A stretch of DNA of 64,000 nucleotides. Origin: Rhodococcus sp. X156 (lineage in GTDB: Bacteria; Actinomycetota; Actinomycetes; Mycobacteriales; Mycobacteriaceae). Both the position numbers and the translations under genes were made by a program. Positions 8,131 to 54,075 of the stretch are shown here, in pieces. Under the pieces are notes generated by a model. That model was given only the letters and a program-made list of their open reading frames with translations. It made no database searches and was not told where the DNA came from. Where the stretch lies: positions 2,451,001-2,515,000 of the forward strand of contig NZ_CP034766.1 in NCBI RefSeq assembly GCF_004006015.1, written 5' to 3'. Within the stretch, counting starts at the first letter, position 1. Every line of letters starts with the position of its first letter.

Positions 8131-8131
8131 C

Positions 8132-9181
8132 TCAGCCCGCCGCGATGGTGGCGGTGTCGATGACGAACCGGTAGCGCACGTCGGAGTCCACGACGCGGTC
8201 GTAGGCCTCGTCCACCTGGTCGGCGCTGATCGTCTCGATGACGGCGCCGATTCCGTGCTCGGCGCAGAAGTCGAGCATCTCCTGCGTCTGCGGGATGCCA
8301 CCGATGTTCGACCCGGCCAGGGTGCGGCCCTCGCCGACCAGTCCGCCGGGTGTCACCTGGTAAGGGTTGGAGGGCAGACCCACGTTCACCAGCGCACCCA
8401 GCGGGCGCAGCAGCGCCACGTAGCGGTCCATCTCCAGGTCGGCGCTGACGGTGTTGATGATCAGGTCGAAGCTGTTGCGCAGGCTCTTCAGCGTGTCGGC
8501 GTCGGAGGTGGCGTAGTAGTGGTCGGCGCCCAGCTCCGCGCCCTGCTCCTGCTTGGCCATCGTGCGGGAGAGCACGGAGACCTCGGCGCCGAGCTTGTCG
8601 GCGATCTGCACAGCCATGTGGCCCAGCCCGCCCATGCCGATGACGGCGACCTTCTTGCCCGGCCCCGCTCCCCAGCGCTTGAGCGGGCTGTAGGTGGTGA
8701 TGCCGGCGCACAGCAGCGGCGCGGCCACGTCGAGACCGAGGCCGTCCGGGATGCGCAGCACGAACCGGTCGGAGACCACGACCTCCTGGCTGTAGCCGCC
8801 CAGGGTGGGCTCGCCGTCGTAGCCGAGGCCGTTGTAGGTCATCACCGCACCCTTGTCGCAGTACTGCTCCTCGCCGCTGCGGCAGAAGTCGCACTCCCCG
8901 CAGGAGTCCACCATGCAGCCCACCCCGACACGGTCACCCACCTGGTAGGAGGTCACGCCGGAGCCCACCTCGGACACCACGCCCGCGATCTCGTGGCCGG
9001 GAACCATCGGGAAGATCGCCGTGCCCCACTCCTCGCGCACCTGGTGGATGTCGCTGTGGCAGATGCCGGCGAACTTGACGTCGATGCGGACGTCCTCGTC
9101 CCGCAGCGCGCGGCGCTCGATGGTGGTCGGCTTGAGCGGCGCTCCGGCCGAGTCGGCAGCGAGGGCGGCGGTGCTCGTCAT
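8132..9181 (-). CDS. Zinc-dependent NAD(P) alcohol dehydrogenase, cinnamyl-alcohol/YahK type
   Basis: A 349-residue medium-chain dehydrogenase interconverting aldehydes and alcohols. Catalytic zinc ligands are in GICHSDIH and GHEIAGVV; the structural zinc is bound by the four cysteines of CGECDFCRSGEEQYC. The nucleotide-binding loop is GMGGLGHMAVQ. Overall layout resembles the YahK/AdhC NADPH-dependent aldehyde reductases. ATG 9181 has AGGAG 5 nt upstream; the longer frame is not used. It stands alone and converges with the crotonase-fold gene. Two inverted repeats in its upstream region (9206-9248) could be operators. Confidence 0.92.
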   Translation of the reverse strand: MTSTAALAADSAGAPLKPTTIERRALRDEDVRIDVKFAGICHSDIHQVREEWGTAIFPMVPGHEIAGVVSEVGSGVTSYQVGDRVGVGCMVDSCGECDFCRSGEEQYCDKGAVMTYNGLGYDGEPTLGGYSQEVVVSDRFVLRIPDGLGLDVAAPLLCAGITTYSPLKRWGAGPGKKVAVIGMGGLGHMAVQIADKLGAEVSVLSRTMAKQEQGAELGADHYYATSDADTLKSLRNSFDLIINTVSADLEMDRYVALLRPLGALVNVGLPSNPYQVTPGGLVGEGRTLAGSNIGGIPQTQEMLDFCAEHGIGAVIETISADQVDEAYDRVVDSDVRYRFVIDTATIAAG

Positions 9182-9205
9182 AGTTCTCCTGTGCGTAGGC
9201 GGTGT

Positions 9206-9248
9206 TACTCCCGAGTACAGGTCGCCAGAGCCGCGGGCTATTCCGCGG
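9206..9248. promoter_or_regulatory. Two inverted repeats upstream of the alcohol dehydrogenase
   Basis: TACTC-cc-GAGTA at 9206-9217 and CCGCGG-N6-CCGCGG at 9231-9248 lie 25-67 bp before the dehydrogenase ATG on its coding side. They are in the right place for repressor or activator binding, but no regulator is adjacent and no clear -35/-10 pair is visible. Confidence 0.3.
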
Positions 9249-9280
9249 ATCACACGACGTGCGTCACAGCGCCTGCGCCG

Positions 9281-10858
9281 TCAGCGCCGTCTGCAGGCGC
9301 GCAGCACCACGTCGTGGGTGTGCGGCGAGATCTCCGCGGGCTCGCCGGTGCGCGGGCGGGTCTCGTCCACCAGCACCTCCCAGTCGTCGTCCAGCAGGTC
9401 CGCGACGTCCGGCGGCTGCACGTAGTCGGCGGGGTCGAAGTCCCGGGAGTGGGCGTGGGTGTGGGTGTGGGTGTGGGCCAGGTCACCGAAGGCGTGGCCC
9501 ACCACCAGCAGGGTGCCGCCCGGGGCCACGGCGGCCAGCAGCGCGCGCTCGGTGGCGTGGTCGGCGCCGTGCTGCAGCGCCGGGTAGTGCAGCGACACCA
9601 GGTCGTAGCTGCCCAGCGGCTCGGTGGTGACGTCGACCTTGCGCCAGTCCACCTCCACCCCTGCCCCGGCAGCCGCCGCCCGGCCTCGGTCCAGCGCCAC
9701 CTGCGAGACGTCCACGGCGGTCACCTGCCAGCCCCGCTGGGCCAGCCAGATCGCGTCGCCGCCCTCTCCGCAGCCCACGTCCAGGGCCCGTCCCGGCTGG
9801 TGCCCGGTCAGCTCGTCCACCAGCACGCCGTTGGGTCCGCCGCTCCAGATCTGCTCGGCGTAGCGGTGGTCCCACTCCACGTCAGCCGGCAGCGCCGCCA
9901 CCGCCGCGGTGGTGTCCTCGGCCACCAGGTCGGCGTTGATCGCCGCACCCACCCAGCCACCGTCGGCGGCGGCGGCCAGCACCTGCTGCGCGACGTTGGT
10001 GGCGTTGCCGGCGACGAACACCCCGGCCACCGCCGTGGCGCCGCTGGCGTCGGTGGGGATCACCTCGCCCCGGCCGGCTGGGTCGGGCACCGCCGTCAGC
10101 CCCAGCGAGTGCACCAGCTCGGCCCGGGCCACCATCCGCGGCGCCACCACCACCGCGTCGGCAGGCACCACGGTGCCGTTGGCCAGGCGCACCCCGGAGA
10201 CCTGGTCGGCGTCGACCACCACCTGCTCCACCGGGCCGGGCAGCACCTGCACGCCGCGTGCCGCCAGCCGAACCCGCTCGTGGTGGTCCGGCCCGGTGCC
10301 CTCGTGCACCACGACCGTCACCTGCTCGGTGAGCTGGCGGAACAGCCCCGCCTGGTGTGCCCCGCCCGGTCCGGTCGCGATCACCACGATGCGTTGGTCG
10401 CGCACCTCCCAGCCGTGGCAGTACGGGCAGTGCAGGACCCCGCGGCCCCACTGCGCGCGCACCCCCGGGATGTCCGGCAGCAGGTCGGTGAGGCCGGTGG
10501 CCAGCAGCACCCGGCGCGCCTGGACGGTGCGGCCGTCGGTGAGCGTGGCCTGGAAGCCGGTGTCGGTGCGGTCCACGGTGTGCACCCGGCCGGCCCAGAT
10601 CTCCACGCCGTAGCCGCGCACCTCGGCGTGACCCCGCGCGAGCAGCTCGGCCGGGGCGATGCCCTCGTGACCGAGGAAGCCGTGCACGTGCGCGGCCGGG
10701 GCGTTGCGCGGCTCGCCGGAGTCGATCACCACCACCGAGCGGCGTGCCCGCCCGAGCTGCAGGGCGGCGGTCAGGCCGGCCGCGCCGCCGCCGATCACCA
10801 CCACGTCGTGGGGGTGGTCGGCAGAGCGCTGGTCGTCCTGGATCACTGGTTCCGTCAT
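9281..10858 (-). CDS. Bifunctional thioredoxin-reductase-like flavoprotein / SAM methyltransferase
   Basis: A 525-residue fusion. Residues 1-310 form an FAD/NAD(P)H oxidoreductase of the thioredoxin-reductase fold: FAD loop VVIGGGAAGL (about 20-29), redox pair CPYC at 144-147, NAD(P) loop near 160, and an FAD-closing segment GVFVAGNATNV. Residues 325-525 form a class I methyltransferase with LDVGCGEGGD at 359-368 (SAM binding). A His/Thr run (HTHTHTHAH, 462-470) encoded by a hexanucleotide repeat lies near the end. The ATG 10858 has no Shine-Dalgarno sequence. It is divergent from an XRE-cupin regulator 51 bp away, which probably controls it. Substrates of both halves are unknown. Confidence 0.85.
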   Translation of the reverse strand: MTEPVIQDDQRSADHPHDVVVIGGGAAGLTAALQLGRARRSVVVIDSGEPRNAPAAHVHGFLGHEGIAPAELLARGHAEVRGYGVEIWAGRVHTVDRTDTGFQATLTDGRTVQARRVLLATGLTDLLPDIPGVRAQWGRGVLHCPYCHGWEVRDQRIVVIATGPGGAHQAGLFRQLTEQVTVVVHEGTGPDHHERVRLAARGVQVLPGPVEQVVVDADQVSGVRLANGTVVPADAVVVAPRMVARAELVHSLGLTAVPDPAGRGEVIPTDASGATAVAGVFVAGNATNVAQQVLAAAADGGWVGAAINADLVAEDTTAAVAALPADVEWDHRYAEQIWSGGPNGVLVDELTGHQPGRALDVGCGEGGDAIWLAQRGWQVTAVDVSQVALDRGRAAAAGAGVEVDWRKVDVTTEPLGSYDLVSLHYPALQHGADHATERALLAAVAPGGTLLVVGHAFGDLAHTHTHTHAHSRDFDPADYVQPPDVADLLDDDWEVLVDETRPRTGEPAEISPHTHDVVLRACRRR

Positions 10859-10900
10859 GTCCACAACCGTACGACCGCTCAGGCGAATGCAGCAACGCGT

Positions 10901-10917
10901 CTTGCGGTAATGGCAAG
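10901..10917. promoter_or_regulatory. Inverted repeat CTTGC-N7-GCAAG, candidate operator of the XRE regulator
   Basis: A perfect 5-bp-arm inverted repeat lies in the divergent promoter region and overlaps the first possible start codon (10910) of the XRE-cupin gene. This is where an autoregulator would bind to control both directions. If it is the operator, the true start of the regulator may be the in-frame GTG at 10937. Confidence 0.35.
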
Positions 10918-11503
10918 AATCGCCCAGGATGGTTCCGTGCCCGCCAACGACGTCGAAGAGCTCGTCCGCGCCCGGTTGCGCACCCTGCGTCGCTCGCTCG
11001 GGTGGTCCCTGGACGAGCTGGCCCAGCGCAGCCACCTCAGCCCGTCCACCATCAGCCGCATCGAGACGGGCAAGCGGGGCATCAGCATCGACGTGCTCAT
11101 CGCCCTGGCCACCGCGCTGCAGATCGACCTCGACTCGCTGCTGGACGTGCACGGCAACGACGAGGACGTGGTGATCCGGCCCGTCCCCACCACCCGCCAC
11201 GGTGCCACCACCTGGCCGCTGAGCCGCCCGACCGGCAGCACGGTCGCCCTCAAGATGCGCCTGGTGCCCACCGCGGAGCGCCGTGAGCCGCGCGTGCACC
11301 CGGGCCACGACTGGATGTTCGTGCTCTCCGGCCGGGTGCGGCTCACGCTCGGCGAGCGCGAGATCGTGGTGGAGACCGGTGAGGCCGCGGAGTTCTCCAC
11401 CATGACCCCGCACGCCGTGGACGCCCTCGACGGGCCGGCCGAGCTGGTCATGGTGTTCGACCGCGACGGCCAGCGCGCCCACCTGCACACCGACGGCGCC
11501 TGA
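10910..11503 (+). CDS. XRE-family regulator with C-terminal cupin domain
   Basis: A 197-residue regulator. The helix-turn-helix spans about residues 20-75 (LDELAQRSHLSPSTISRIETGKRGIS), and a cupin barrel spans about 100-190 (HPGHDWMFVLSGRVRLTLGE; STMTPHAVDAL), which in this class binds a small ligand or metal. It starts at ATG 10910, or possibly at GTG 10937, because an inverted repeat overlaps the first. It is divergent from the flavoprotein-methyltransferase fusion and likely regulates it. Its last codons are part of a 22-bp sequence repeated on the far side of the neighbouring nuclease gene. Confidence 0.87.
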   Translation: MARIAQDGSVPANDVEELVRARLRTLRRSLGWSLDELAQRSHLSPSTISRIETGKRGISIDVLIALATALQIDLDSLLDVHGNDEDVVIRPVPTTRHGATTWPLSRPTGSTVALKMRLVPTAERREPRVHPGHDWMFVLSGRVRLTLGEREIVVETGEAAEFSTMTPHAVDALDGPAELVMVFDRDGQRAHLHTDGA

Positions 11504-11508
11504 GCCGG
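11487..11508. repeat. 22-bp direct repeat, left copy
   Basis: These 22 bases span the last codons and stop of the XRE-cupin gene and are repeated without mismatch at 12078-12099, 591 bp away. The two copies bracket exactly the GIY-YIG gene, as expected if that segment was inserted with duplication of the target or copied by recombination. Confidence 0.85.
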
Positions 11509-11513
11509 AAGAC

Positions 11514-12062
11514 TCACGCGGTTGTCGGTGGTCGCGGCCCCGCGGAGGCGCGGTAGGCCGCACGTGCGGAGGCGATGCTCGAGTACAGCGGATGGTCGCT
11601 GTTGTGGGCCTGGTTCAGCGGAGGGGCCAGCTCCGCGATCACCGCAGCTTCCACCGCGCGCGGCTCGGGGTGCTGCACCCAGGTGACGCGGAGGTGCTCC
11701 CGCATCCACTGCGACAGCCGTGCCTCGTCCGCATCGATGGGAACAACCCGAGTGCTGGTCCACCGCGTGGCGTAGCCCTCGGAGCTCATGAGCAGTGCGA
11801 CCAGGGCGCGGCGAAAGGTCGAGGAACCAGTCGGACCTCGGAAGTGGTTCCGCACCACCCTGCGGTGCAAGTTCCGCGCCAGCCCGACGTACAGCAGCTC
11901 CAGCCCCTCGACGCCAGGAGCTTCGGCCCCGCGCACGCCAGGGAGAGCGTCGGGCGCTGCCCACCACGAGTAGAGGCCCGAGGTCCGGGGCACCTCTGAA
12001 CCCGCTCGCTCCACATCAGCCGGGGTCTGGCACAGCTCCGCCGCTACCGCCTGCGCATCCAT
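11514..12062 (-). CDS. GIY-YIG nuclease-domain protein
   Basis: A 182-residue protein with the GIY-YIG fold. The two signature strands are GLY (29-31) and LYVG (57-60); the catalytic arginine region is LHRRVVRNHF (66-75); the catalytic glutamate is Glu138 in VEAAVIAELAPPLN, with the usual terminal PPLN. All catalytic elements are therefore present, so it can be an active nuclease. No extra DNA-binding domain is seen. ATG 12062 was chosen because homology begins there; the upstream frame crosses the repeat. The gene lies between two copies of a 22-bp direct repeat, downstream of the tmRNA terminator. Its role (homing, restriction, repair) is unknown. Confidence 0.75.
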   Translation of the reverse strand: MDAQAVAAELCQTPADVERAGSEVPRTSGLYSWWAAPDALPGVRGAEAPGVEGLELLYVGLARNLHRRVVRNHFRGPTGSSTFRRALVALLMSSEGYATRWTSTRVVPIDADEARLSQWMREHLRVTWVQHPEPRAVEAAVIAELAPPLNQAHNSDHPLYSSIASARAAYRASAGPRPPTTA

Positions 12063-12077
12063 CACGTCTCTAGCCTG

Positions 12078-12099
12078 ACACCGACGGCGCCTGAGCCGG
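12078..12099. repeat. 22-bp direct repeat, right copy
   Basis: Perfect copy of 11487-11508, lying just before the ssrA terminator. Here it has no coding role, so it is the duplicated copy of the XRE gene end. Deleting one copy and the DNA between would restore a simple XRE-ssrA junction. Confidence 0.85.
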
Positions 12100-12105
12100 G
12101 GCACG

Positions 12106-12136
12106 AAAAAGGGGCGGTCACCGTGGTGACCGCCCC
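12106..12136 (-). terminator. Intrinsic terminator of ssrA
   Basis: On the minus strand a 12-bp perfect stem (GGGGCGGTCACC with its complement, 2-nt loop) at 12111-12136 is followed by TTTTT (12110-12106). It begins 14 bp after the tmRNA 3' end. Confidence 0.9.
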
Positions 12137-12150
12137 TCCCTCACGTACGG

Positions 12151-12520
12151 GGTGGAGGTGCCGGGAATCGAACCCGGGTCCTTCGTCGCATCAACAGGGC
12201 TTCTCCGTGCGCAGTCCTCTATGTCCCTGCTTGGATCTCCTGGTCACGAGGACGAGCCAGGACGACGATCCCAGCCGCTGTTTGGTGTCCCCTGCGGATC
12301 CGCGGCCGATCCGCAGGGTAAGAGCCCTCTAGTCGATGCCAGGGTCCGGGGCGAGGGCACACCCGGTCTGACAGAGTCGCTACTCGCTCAGGCGGCGAGG
12401 GCGAACTCGCGCTGACTGGAGTCGGCGCTTATTTGGTTGCAGTGACGCTTGTGGTGGTCTCCTGCCTGCACCAGCACGCTTCCCCTGAATCAACGTACGG
12501 AGTCGAAACCGTTCACCCCC
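12151..12520 (-). ncRNA. ssrA: Transfer-messenger RNA (tmRNA)
   Basis: About 370 nt. The 5' end GGGGGTGAACGGTTTCGAC pairs with the 3' acceptor strand CACCTCC to form the tRNA-like stem, and the T arm reads GGGTTCGATTCCC. The tag reading frame in the middle encodes ADSSQREFALAA followed by TGA, close to the actinobacterial tag pattern. The terminal CCA is not fully encoded. tmRNA with SmpB rescues stalled ribosomes and marks the nascent chain for proteolysis; smpB lies about 1 kb upstream on the same strand. Confidence 0.97.
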
Positions 12521-13559: not shown

Positions 13560-14033
13560 TCAGCGCATCCCCTTGACGCGACGCCCCAGCTCCCGGGTGA
13601 CCTCGCGCTCCATGTCCCGCTTGGCCAGGTCCTGGCGCTTGTCGTGGGCCTGCTTGCCCTTGGCCAGGGCCAGCTCCACCTTGACGTAGCCGTTCTGGAA
13701 GTACATCGACAGCGGCACCAGCGTGAGGCTGCCCTCCCGGGTCTTGCCGATCAGCCGCTCGATCTCGGACTTGTGCAGCAGCAGCTTGCGGCTGCGGCGC
13801 GGGGCGTGGTTGGTCCAGCTGCCCTGGGTGTACTCGGGGATGTGCAGACCGCGCAGCCAGATCTCGCCGTTGTCCACCGTGGCGAAGGCGTCCACCAGCG
13901 ACGCCTTGCCGTCGCGCAGGCTCTTCACCTCGGTGCCGACCAGCACGACGCCGGCCTCGAAGACGTCCACGATGCTGTAGTTGTGGCGCGCCTTCCGGTT
14001 GGTCGCGATGGCCTTGCGGCCCTTTTCCCTCAT
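13560..14033 (-). CDS. smpB: SsrA-binding protein SmpB
   Basis: A 157-residue partner of tmRNA in ribosome rescue. The beginning [15 protein letters not shown] is the conserved OB-fold start, followed by [18 protein letters not shown] and [11 protein letters not shown]. The basic C-terminal tail ([20 protein letters not shown]) mimics mRNA in the decoding site. Length and motifs are standard. ATG 14033 has AGGGTGG 5 nt upstream. It follows ftsX and precedes the amidohydrolase and ssrA, the usual actinobacterial order. Confidence 0.97.
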
Positions 14034-53958: not shown

Positions 53959-54075
53959 AGGTCATGAGTGCCAGCGTCAAGCCCCGGCTCGCTGGCCGGC
54001 AACCCTCCTCCGCGGTGGGGTGCCCCGGGTGAGGACCAGGCTCCGGCGAGGTGTCGGAGCAAGCGCGGACCCCCG
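53959..54075 (+). ncRNA. SAM-IV type riboswitch
   Basis: The leader matches the actinobacterial SAM-IV aptamer as I remember it: the segments ggtcatgagtgccagcg, tcaagccccggc, ggccggcaaccctcc, cgcggtggggtgccccggg and gaggaccagg follow in order, with ggtc pairing gacc to close P1. A further stem gctccg/cggagc lies at 54040-54060. This class binds S-adenosylmethionine, and a nearby SAM-I would have a different core. It lies 57 nt before the cysteine dioxygenase start, so SAM level should control that gene. Confidence 0.8.

Follow-up and report, generated by a model that had tools for sequence, protein, structure and literature searches.

The closest described systems to the locus reported here are the solitary PF20815 nucleases of Mycobacteriales, the tDNA-targeted genomic islands of the Islander type, and the free-standing GIY-YIG homing endonucleases of the Seg and I-TevI type. 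In homing, a recombination event places a copy of the gene in a split site, without a 22-bp duplication. Homing enzymes are among the members of the GIY-YIG superfamily (PMC1564403), and tmRNA is a well-known integration target (PMC4383910), which supports the description of the ssrA region as an integration hotspot in a first-pass annotation of this DNA. The locus lies in a window of 64,000 nucleotides, the whole stretch analyzed, which spans positions 2,451,001 to 2,515,000 of the closed 3.72-Mb genome of Rhodococcus sp. X156 and has a G+C content of 73.5%. Coordinates below are window positions.

The nuclease gene sits between a regulator gene and ssrA. To its left are a zinc-type alcohol dehydrogenase open reading frame (ORF) (8132 to 9253, minus strand; identified by eye from its translation), a gene for an FAD oxidoreductase/SAM methyltransferase fusion (9281 to 10858, minus strand), whose homologues also adjoin XRE homologues in other genomes, and an intact gene for an XRE-type regulator with helix-turn-helix (HTH) and cupin domains (10913 to 11503, plus strand; 5′ end not refined). 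To its right are the tmRNA terminator (12105 to 12140, minus strand), the intact tmRNA gene (12151 to 12520, minus strand), whose 3′ end and the GIY-YIG start lie 85 bp apart, and smpB (13560 to 14033, minus strand), identified by a profile search. On the minus strand, the terminator reads as a GC stem with TTTTT after it; the stem folds, and a simple terminator scan did not flag it. Elsewhere in the window, a SAM-IV riboswitch (109.5 bits) is found at positions 53960 to 54071.

The sequence ACACCGACGGCGCCTGAGCCGG is present at positions 11487 to 11508 (copy 1) and again at 12078 to 12099 (copy 2), on the plus strand. The two copies are identical, so the perfect 22-bp direct repeat around the GIY-YIG gene was confirmed exactly where the first-pass annotation had placed it. 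This pair is the longest direct repeat of the window at any distance; among repeats spaced no more than 2.5 kb apart, the runner-up measures 18 bp. Direct repeats in 40 windows simulated with a Markov-3 model peaked at 20 bp, compared to the 22 bp observed, and a simple composition estimate gave an expectation of ~5e-4 pairs of 22 bp or longer within 2.5 kb. Beyond the repeat, the flanking sequences show no relationship, with 6/30 and 7/30 matches. A search of the 3.72-Mb genome returned exactly 2 copies, with the next-best match, ~190 kb away, carrying 3 mismatches; the repeat was absent from the viral contigs searched, and no unusual folding of either copy was found (z scores of -0.33 and 0.38). 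The repeat is more than chance and is most simply read as an insertion scar.

Copy 1 comprises the end of the XRE coding sequence, including the stop codon (11501 to 11503), plus 5 bp. Because the best XRE homologue (L043; 65%) stops after an equal length (HSEGD-stop versus HTDGA-stop), copy 1 is taken, on this sequence comparison, to be the native XRE end. Copy 2 lies just beyond the tmRNA terminator, on the side facing the GIY-YIG start. A gap of 51 bp separates the repeat from the tmRNA end, and the two sequences do not match, indicating that the repeat is not a tmRNA att duplication.

The bracketed segment (11509 to 12077) is 569 bp long and consists of 5 bp, one ORF, and 12 bp. The ORF (11514 to 12065, minus strand) encodes a GIY-YIG nuclease of family PF20815 (GIY_YIG_2). 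The first-pass annotation described it as a gene of 549 bp; the ORF stood up, and the length probably needs a small correction, since comparison with the orthologues L075 and L074 makes a GTG start at 12065 (552 bp) likelier than the possible ATG at 12062. An AGG ahead of the GTG may act as a weak ribosome-binding site. The protein matches the Pfam PF20815 profile with an E value of 7.7e-24 and 84.9 bits, against a curated cutoff of 22.4, and matches the classical GIY-YIG model weakly, with a score under the cutoff. Its active-site residues G29/Y31, Y58/G60, R68, H73, E138, and N150 agree with the family; in a 30-row alignment, G29, Y31, Y58, G60, H73, E138, and N150 are invariant and R68 nearly so. 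The catalytic site is thus predicted to be intact, as had been claimed, with every expected position conserved across homologues. Within the conserved STLRR stretch, the window protein carries Phe83 (11814 to 11816), where 57/59 rows carry Leu. The AlphaFold model has a mean pLDDT of 95.7, and its closest solved fold is the UvrC N-terminal GIY-YIG domain (PDB 1yd4 and 1yd5), with a probability of 0.96 to 0.98 and a weak match (E value of 0.029; 14% identity). A search for sequence relatives in the PDB returned none, and a Pfam profile search found only the GIY-YIG domain and no extra DNA-binding module (NUMOD or HTH).

The GIY-YIG ORF stands alone, with no recombinase within the 569 bp. No terminal inverted repeats were found (the best 14-nt end match was 7/14), and the integron attC core GTTRRRY is absent from either strand of positions 11471 to 12120. 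The lack of end inverted repeats and transposase and the single GIY-YIG ORF speak against an IS element or transposon, and the absence of the GTTRRRY core speaks against an integron gene cassette. A scan for sigma-70-type promoters gave no match, such scans being weak for high-GC actinobacteria. A promoter would not fit within the insert, and the sequence upstream of the nuclease gene contains the tmRNA terminator, from which we infer that the gene is promoterless. The nuclease is presumed to be expressed and active.

Comparison of the XRE-ssrA junction covered two genomes of this genus and one of the next genus. The same-genus genome G001 lacks the whole of positions 8131 to 12148 (the alcohol dehydrogenase, oxidoreductase-methyltransferase, XRE, and GIY-YIG genes), beginning at its left end with the alcohol dehydrogenase ORF; in G001 the tmRNA gene is followed by an enoyl-CoA hydratase gene. 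No XRE, oxidoreductase, or GIY-YIG homologue was found in the flank read beside the tmRNA gene of the nearest other genus (G012). The first-pass annotation had proposed this comparison, and the nuclease gene proved not to be a fixture of the site in all relatives. With the block missing from G001 and the checked genes unseen beside tmRNA in G012, the tmRNA 3′ flank is variable, with a variable segment of ~4 kb (8131 to 12148) that is larger than the unit first reported. Both genomes lack the XRE gene at the site as well as the nuclease, so the direction of the event is something that we infer. Break repair is likewise a proposed mechanism. No XRE homologue lies beside tmRNA among the 30 best loci elsewhere. 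BLAST found no second tmRNA fragment in the genome, although a copy under ~25 bp could escape such a search. The genome encodes Ku, a key end-joining protein, and three tyrosine recombinases, all >200 kb away.

The nuclease gene is well supported as a horizontal acquisition. Its GC3 is 0.814, compared to 0.93 to 0.975 in six neighboring genes. The best relatives in the bacterial family of the host (f1) reach ~56% identity; members of family f16, which the Blastococcus records L035 and L036 identify as Geodermatophilaceae, attain about 66 to 71%. A maximum-likelihood tree grouped the window gene with four Geodermatophilaceae genes (L074, L035, L075, and L036; starred support, 95/97), and DNA homology to relatives covers the ORF alone, ending at the ORF ends. 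The depressed GC3, this placement, and the homology edges together argue for acquisition, with the nearest relatives in Geodermatophilaceae. The foreign codon profile and the Geodermatophilaceae grouping, along with the native XRE end and the absence of the gene from G001 and G012, also bear out the earlier view of the segment as inserted.

We then considered the PF20815 relatives, which occur in 69 other genomes of the 399 sampled in the order Mycobacteriales. At ~57 homologous loci, no comparable bracketing direct repeat was found, the longest being 13 bp versus shuffle maxima of 10 to 13 bp, indicating that the repeat belongs to the insertion in the window and not to the family. Nuclease relatives occur on Rhodococcus and Dietzia plasmids, and none were found among viral contigs and phages in two collections. 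Several homologue groups look as though they were inherited in place, given the conserved neighbors common to their members. The closest clade presents a different picture in one respect: 3 of its 5 members lie within ~160 bp of the 3′ end of a tRNA or tmRNA gene or of a displaced tRNA copy, the window gene, at 85 bp, being one of the three. The chance of this pattern is ~1.5e-5, a rough figure to be read only as a lead, because the number of tDNA ends was assumed and the pattern was spotted before testing. In Blastococcus G215 (L177, 3102 to 7930), a 4.7-kb segment has a complete tRNA-Met gene at one end and, at the other, a displaced 43-bp copy of the 3′ part of that gene; the nuclease start lies 75 bp beyond this copy. 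At L035 (3995 to 4748), the nuclease ends 159 bp before an identical 43-bp displaced copy; this locus also has a phage-integrase fragment and a DNA methylase/Mrr-like gene. Many Blastococcus genomes have the 43-bp sequence, frequently in multiple copies. Blastococcus G420 has no nuclease gene between the tRNA-Met end copy and a permease gene, the 113-bp gap being too diverged to place edges, and no shared flanks for L072 were found within Blastococcus. The fourth member of the clade (L180), which is 71% identical to the window nuclease, adjoins two identical tandem transposase ORFs (49 to 1398 and 1587 to 2936) that are IS110-like by inspection. The position of 3/5 members at tDNA ends suggests that the clade is carried as cargo of tDNA-targeted islands.

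The reading that we favor, at somewhat short of an even chance, is a one-off capture of a foreign nuclease gene, with the 22-bp repeat as the scar of staggered-break repair or an equivalent template switch. A solitary promoterless GIY-YIG gene would have been acquired horizontally from a Geodermatophilaceae-type pool, probably as island or plasmid cargo, and inserted once, where little space separates the tmRNA terminator from the XRE stop codon. The preinsertion junction would read XRE...ACACCGACGGCGCCTGAGCCGG directly joined to GGCACGAAAAAGGGG. Most likely, a break with 22-nt staggered ends was repaired with the foreign fragment joined in (or a template switch had the same effect), and fill-in of the overhangs would duplicate the target and leave both the XRE gene and the tmRNA terminator intact. 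The gene would be a passenger and would not move itself. That the bracketing pattern is repeated at no homologous locus supports a one-off scar; the varied contexts of the relatives (plasmids, IS110-like transposases, and displaced tRNA-Met copies) and the presence of Ku also count in its favor. Against it, neither G001 nor G012 offers the XRE gene with one repeat copy and no nuclease, a 22-nt stagger is a long one for a break, the insert of one complete ORF with a short leader is neater than random capture usually gives, and the nearest homologues are just ~70% identical.

The main rival of capture is a decayed site-specific element, and the evidence does not separate the two strongly. A circular element would have been integrated by a tyrosine recombinase at a 22-bp core in the XRE 3′ end, leaving the repeats as attL and attR and regenerating the XRE end, and everything except the GIY-YIG gene, including the integrase, would later have been lost. 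An identical core at both ends, with one copy restoring the 3′ end of a gene and a displaced copy marking the opposite boundary, is what integrases classically leave (PMC4383910, for tDNA targets). The close relatives at L177 and L035 adjoin displaced tRNA-Met copies of integrative segments, the genome has tyrosine recombinases of its own (three), and islands can be expected beside tmRNA. The 569 bp, however, neither contain nor adjoin an integrase and have no room for an attP arm or an integrase remnant, while the repeat is missing from viral contigs and from the rest of the genome and is unlike the tmRNA 3′ end. We regard this history as possible but doubtful.

It is unlikely, though less so than the explanations that follow, that the repeat and the nuclease arose by separate events, with the 22 bp of the XRE end duplicated by template switching or short-homology recombination, partly through similarity between the nuclease leader and the XRE end, so that the repeat would not mark the insertion edges. 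The L075 orthologue has the leader GGCGGTGAGAGGCTG, which is similar to the XRE end read as its complement, GTCGGTGTGCAGG, and, if one base is skipped, the repeat extends by CCTG; from this likeness and the extension, part of copy 2 could be the leader of the nuclease itself. The similarity amounts to only a few bases, however, and no more than 5 and 12 bp separate the repeats from the two ends of the ORF.

The first-pass annotation saw in the segment a very small mobile unit and pointed to homing nucleases. In such a scheme, the GIY-YIG enzyme would cut the XRE-tmRNA junction and promote its own insertion by homing or transposition; the intact active site, the single, exactly bracketed gene, and the homing enzymes within the superfamily speak for it. 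The mobile unit was not supported, since the homologous loci (~57) offer no such repeat and the segment has no terminal inverted repeats, recombinase, or integron core. Homing is likewise disfavored, since it would split its site instead of duplicating it and since bracketing repeats of this kind are not seen across the family: the putative site (assumed to lie within the 22 bp) is intact on both sides, the protein belongs to PF20815, scores below the classical GIY-YIG cutoff, and has no added DNA-binding module, several homologue groups share neighbors and look inherited in place, and the phage collections contain no relatives. Self-mobility is therefore highly improbable. We give even less credence to a minimal mobile unit of an undescribed kind, in which a promoterless cassette of leader and ORF would enter gene 3′ ends beside tRNA or tmRNA genes with a 22-bp target duplication, by means of its own GIY-YIG enzyme or a host recombinase acting in trans. 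Least credible of all is a chance repeat or a retained regulatory motif, for although repeats of up to 18 to 20 bp arise in GC-rich DNA, a perfect 22 bp exceeds all 40 simulations, the motif is nowhere else in the genome, and neither copy folds unusually.

Should the repeat indeed be a scar, this locus would be a clean example, preserved in nature, of single-gene capture in a Ku-encoding actinobacterium. The clade tends to lie at the edges of tRNA and tmRNA genes, a testable hint of transport with tDNA-targeted islands. Were the gene self-mobile, it would be among the smallest mobile units known; the evidence leans against this.

The window gene resembles the solitary PF20815 nucleases of Mycobacteriales in its profile score far over the cutoff, its full set of conserved residues, its length of ~180 amino acids, and its isolation, but it is the only one of the PF20815 loci examined with a long bracketing direct repeat. 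With free-standing GIY-YIG homing endonucleases it shares the catalytic motifs and a single free-standing ORF; unlike the Seg and I-TevI type, it belongs to a different Pfam family and has no added DNA-binding domain, its target is duplicated and not split, and it is absent from the phage sets searched. The UvrC N-terminal domain is the nearest solved fold, and the window protein has none of the UvrC domains. As in Islander-type islands, a foreign gene adjoins tmRNA, and sister genes lie beside displaced tRNA-Met ends; unlike in those islands, the 22-bp repeat is no tmRNA fragment and the segment carries no integrase. Set beside these systems, the locus most likely records a one-off capture that left an orphan nuclease gene as a passenger in the flank of a tDNA, with a scar of unusual cleanness.
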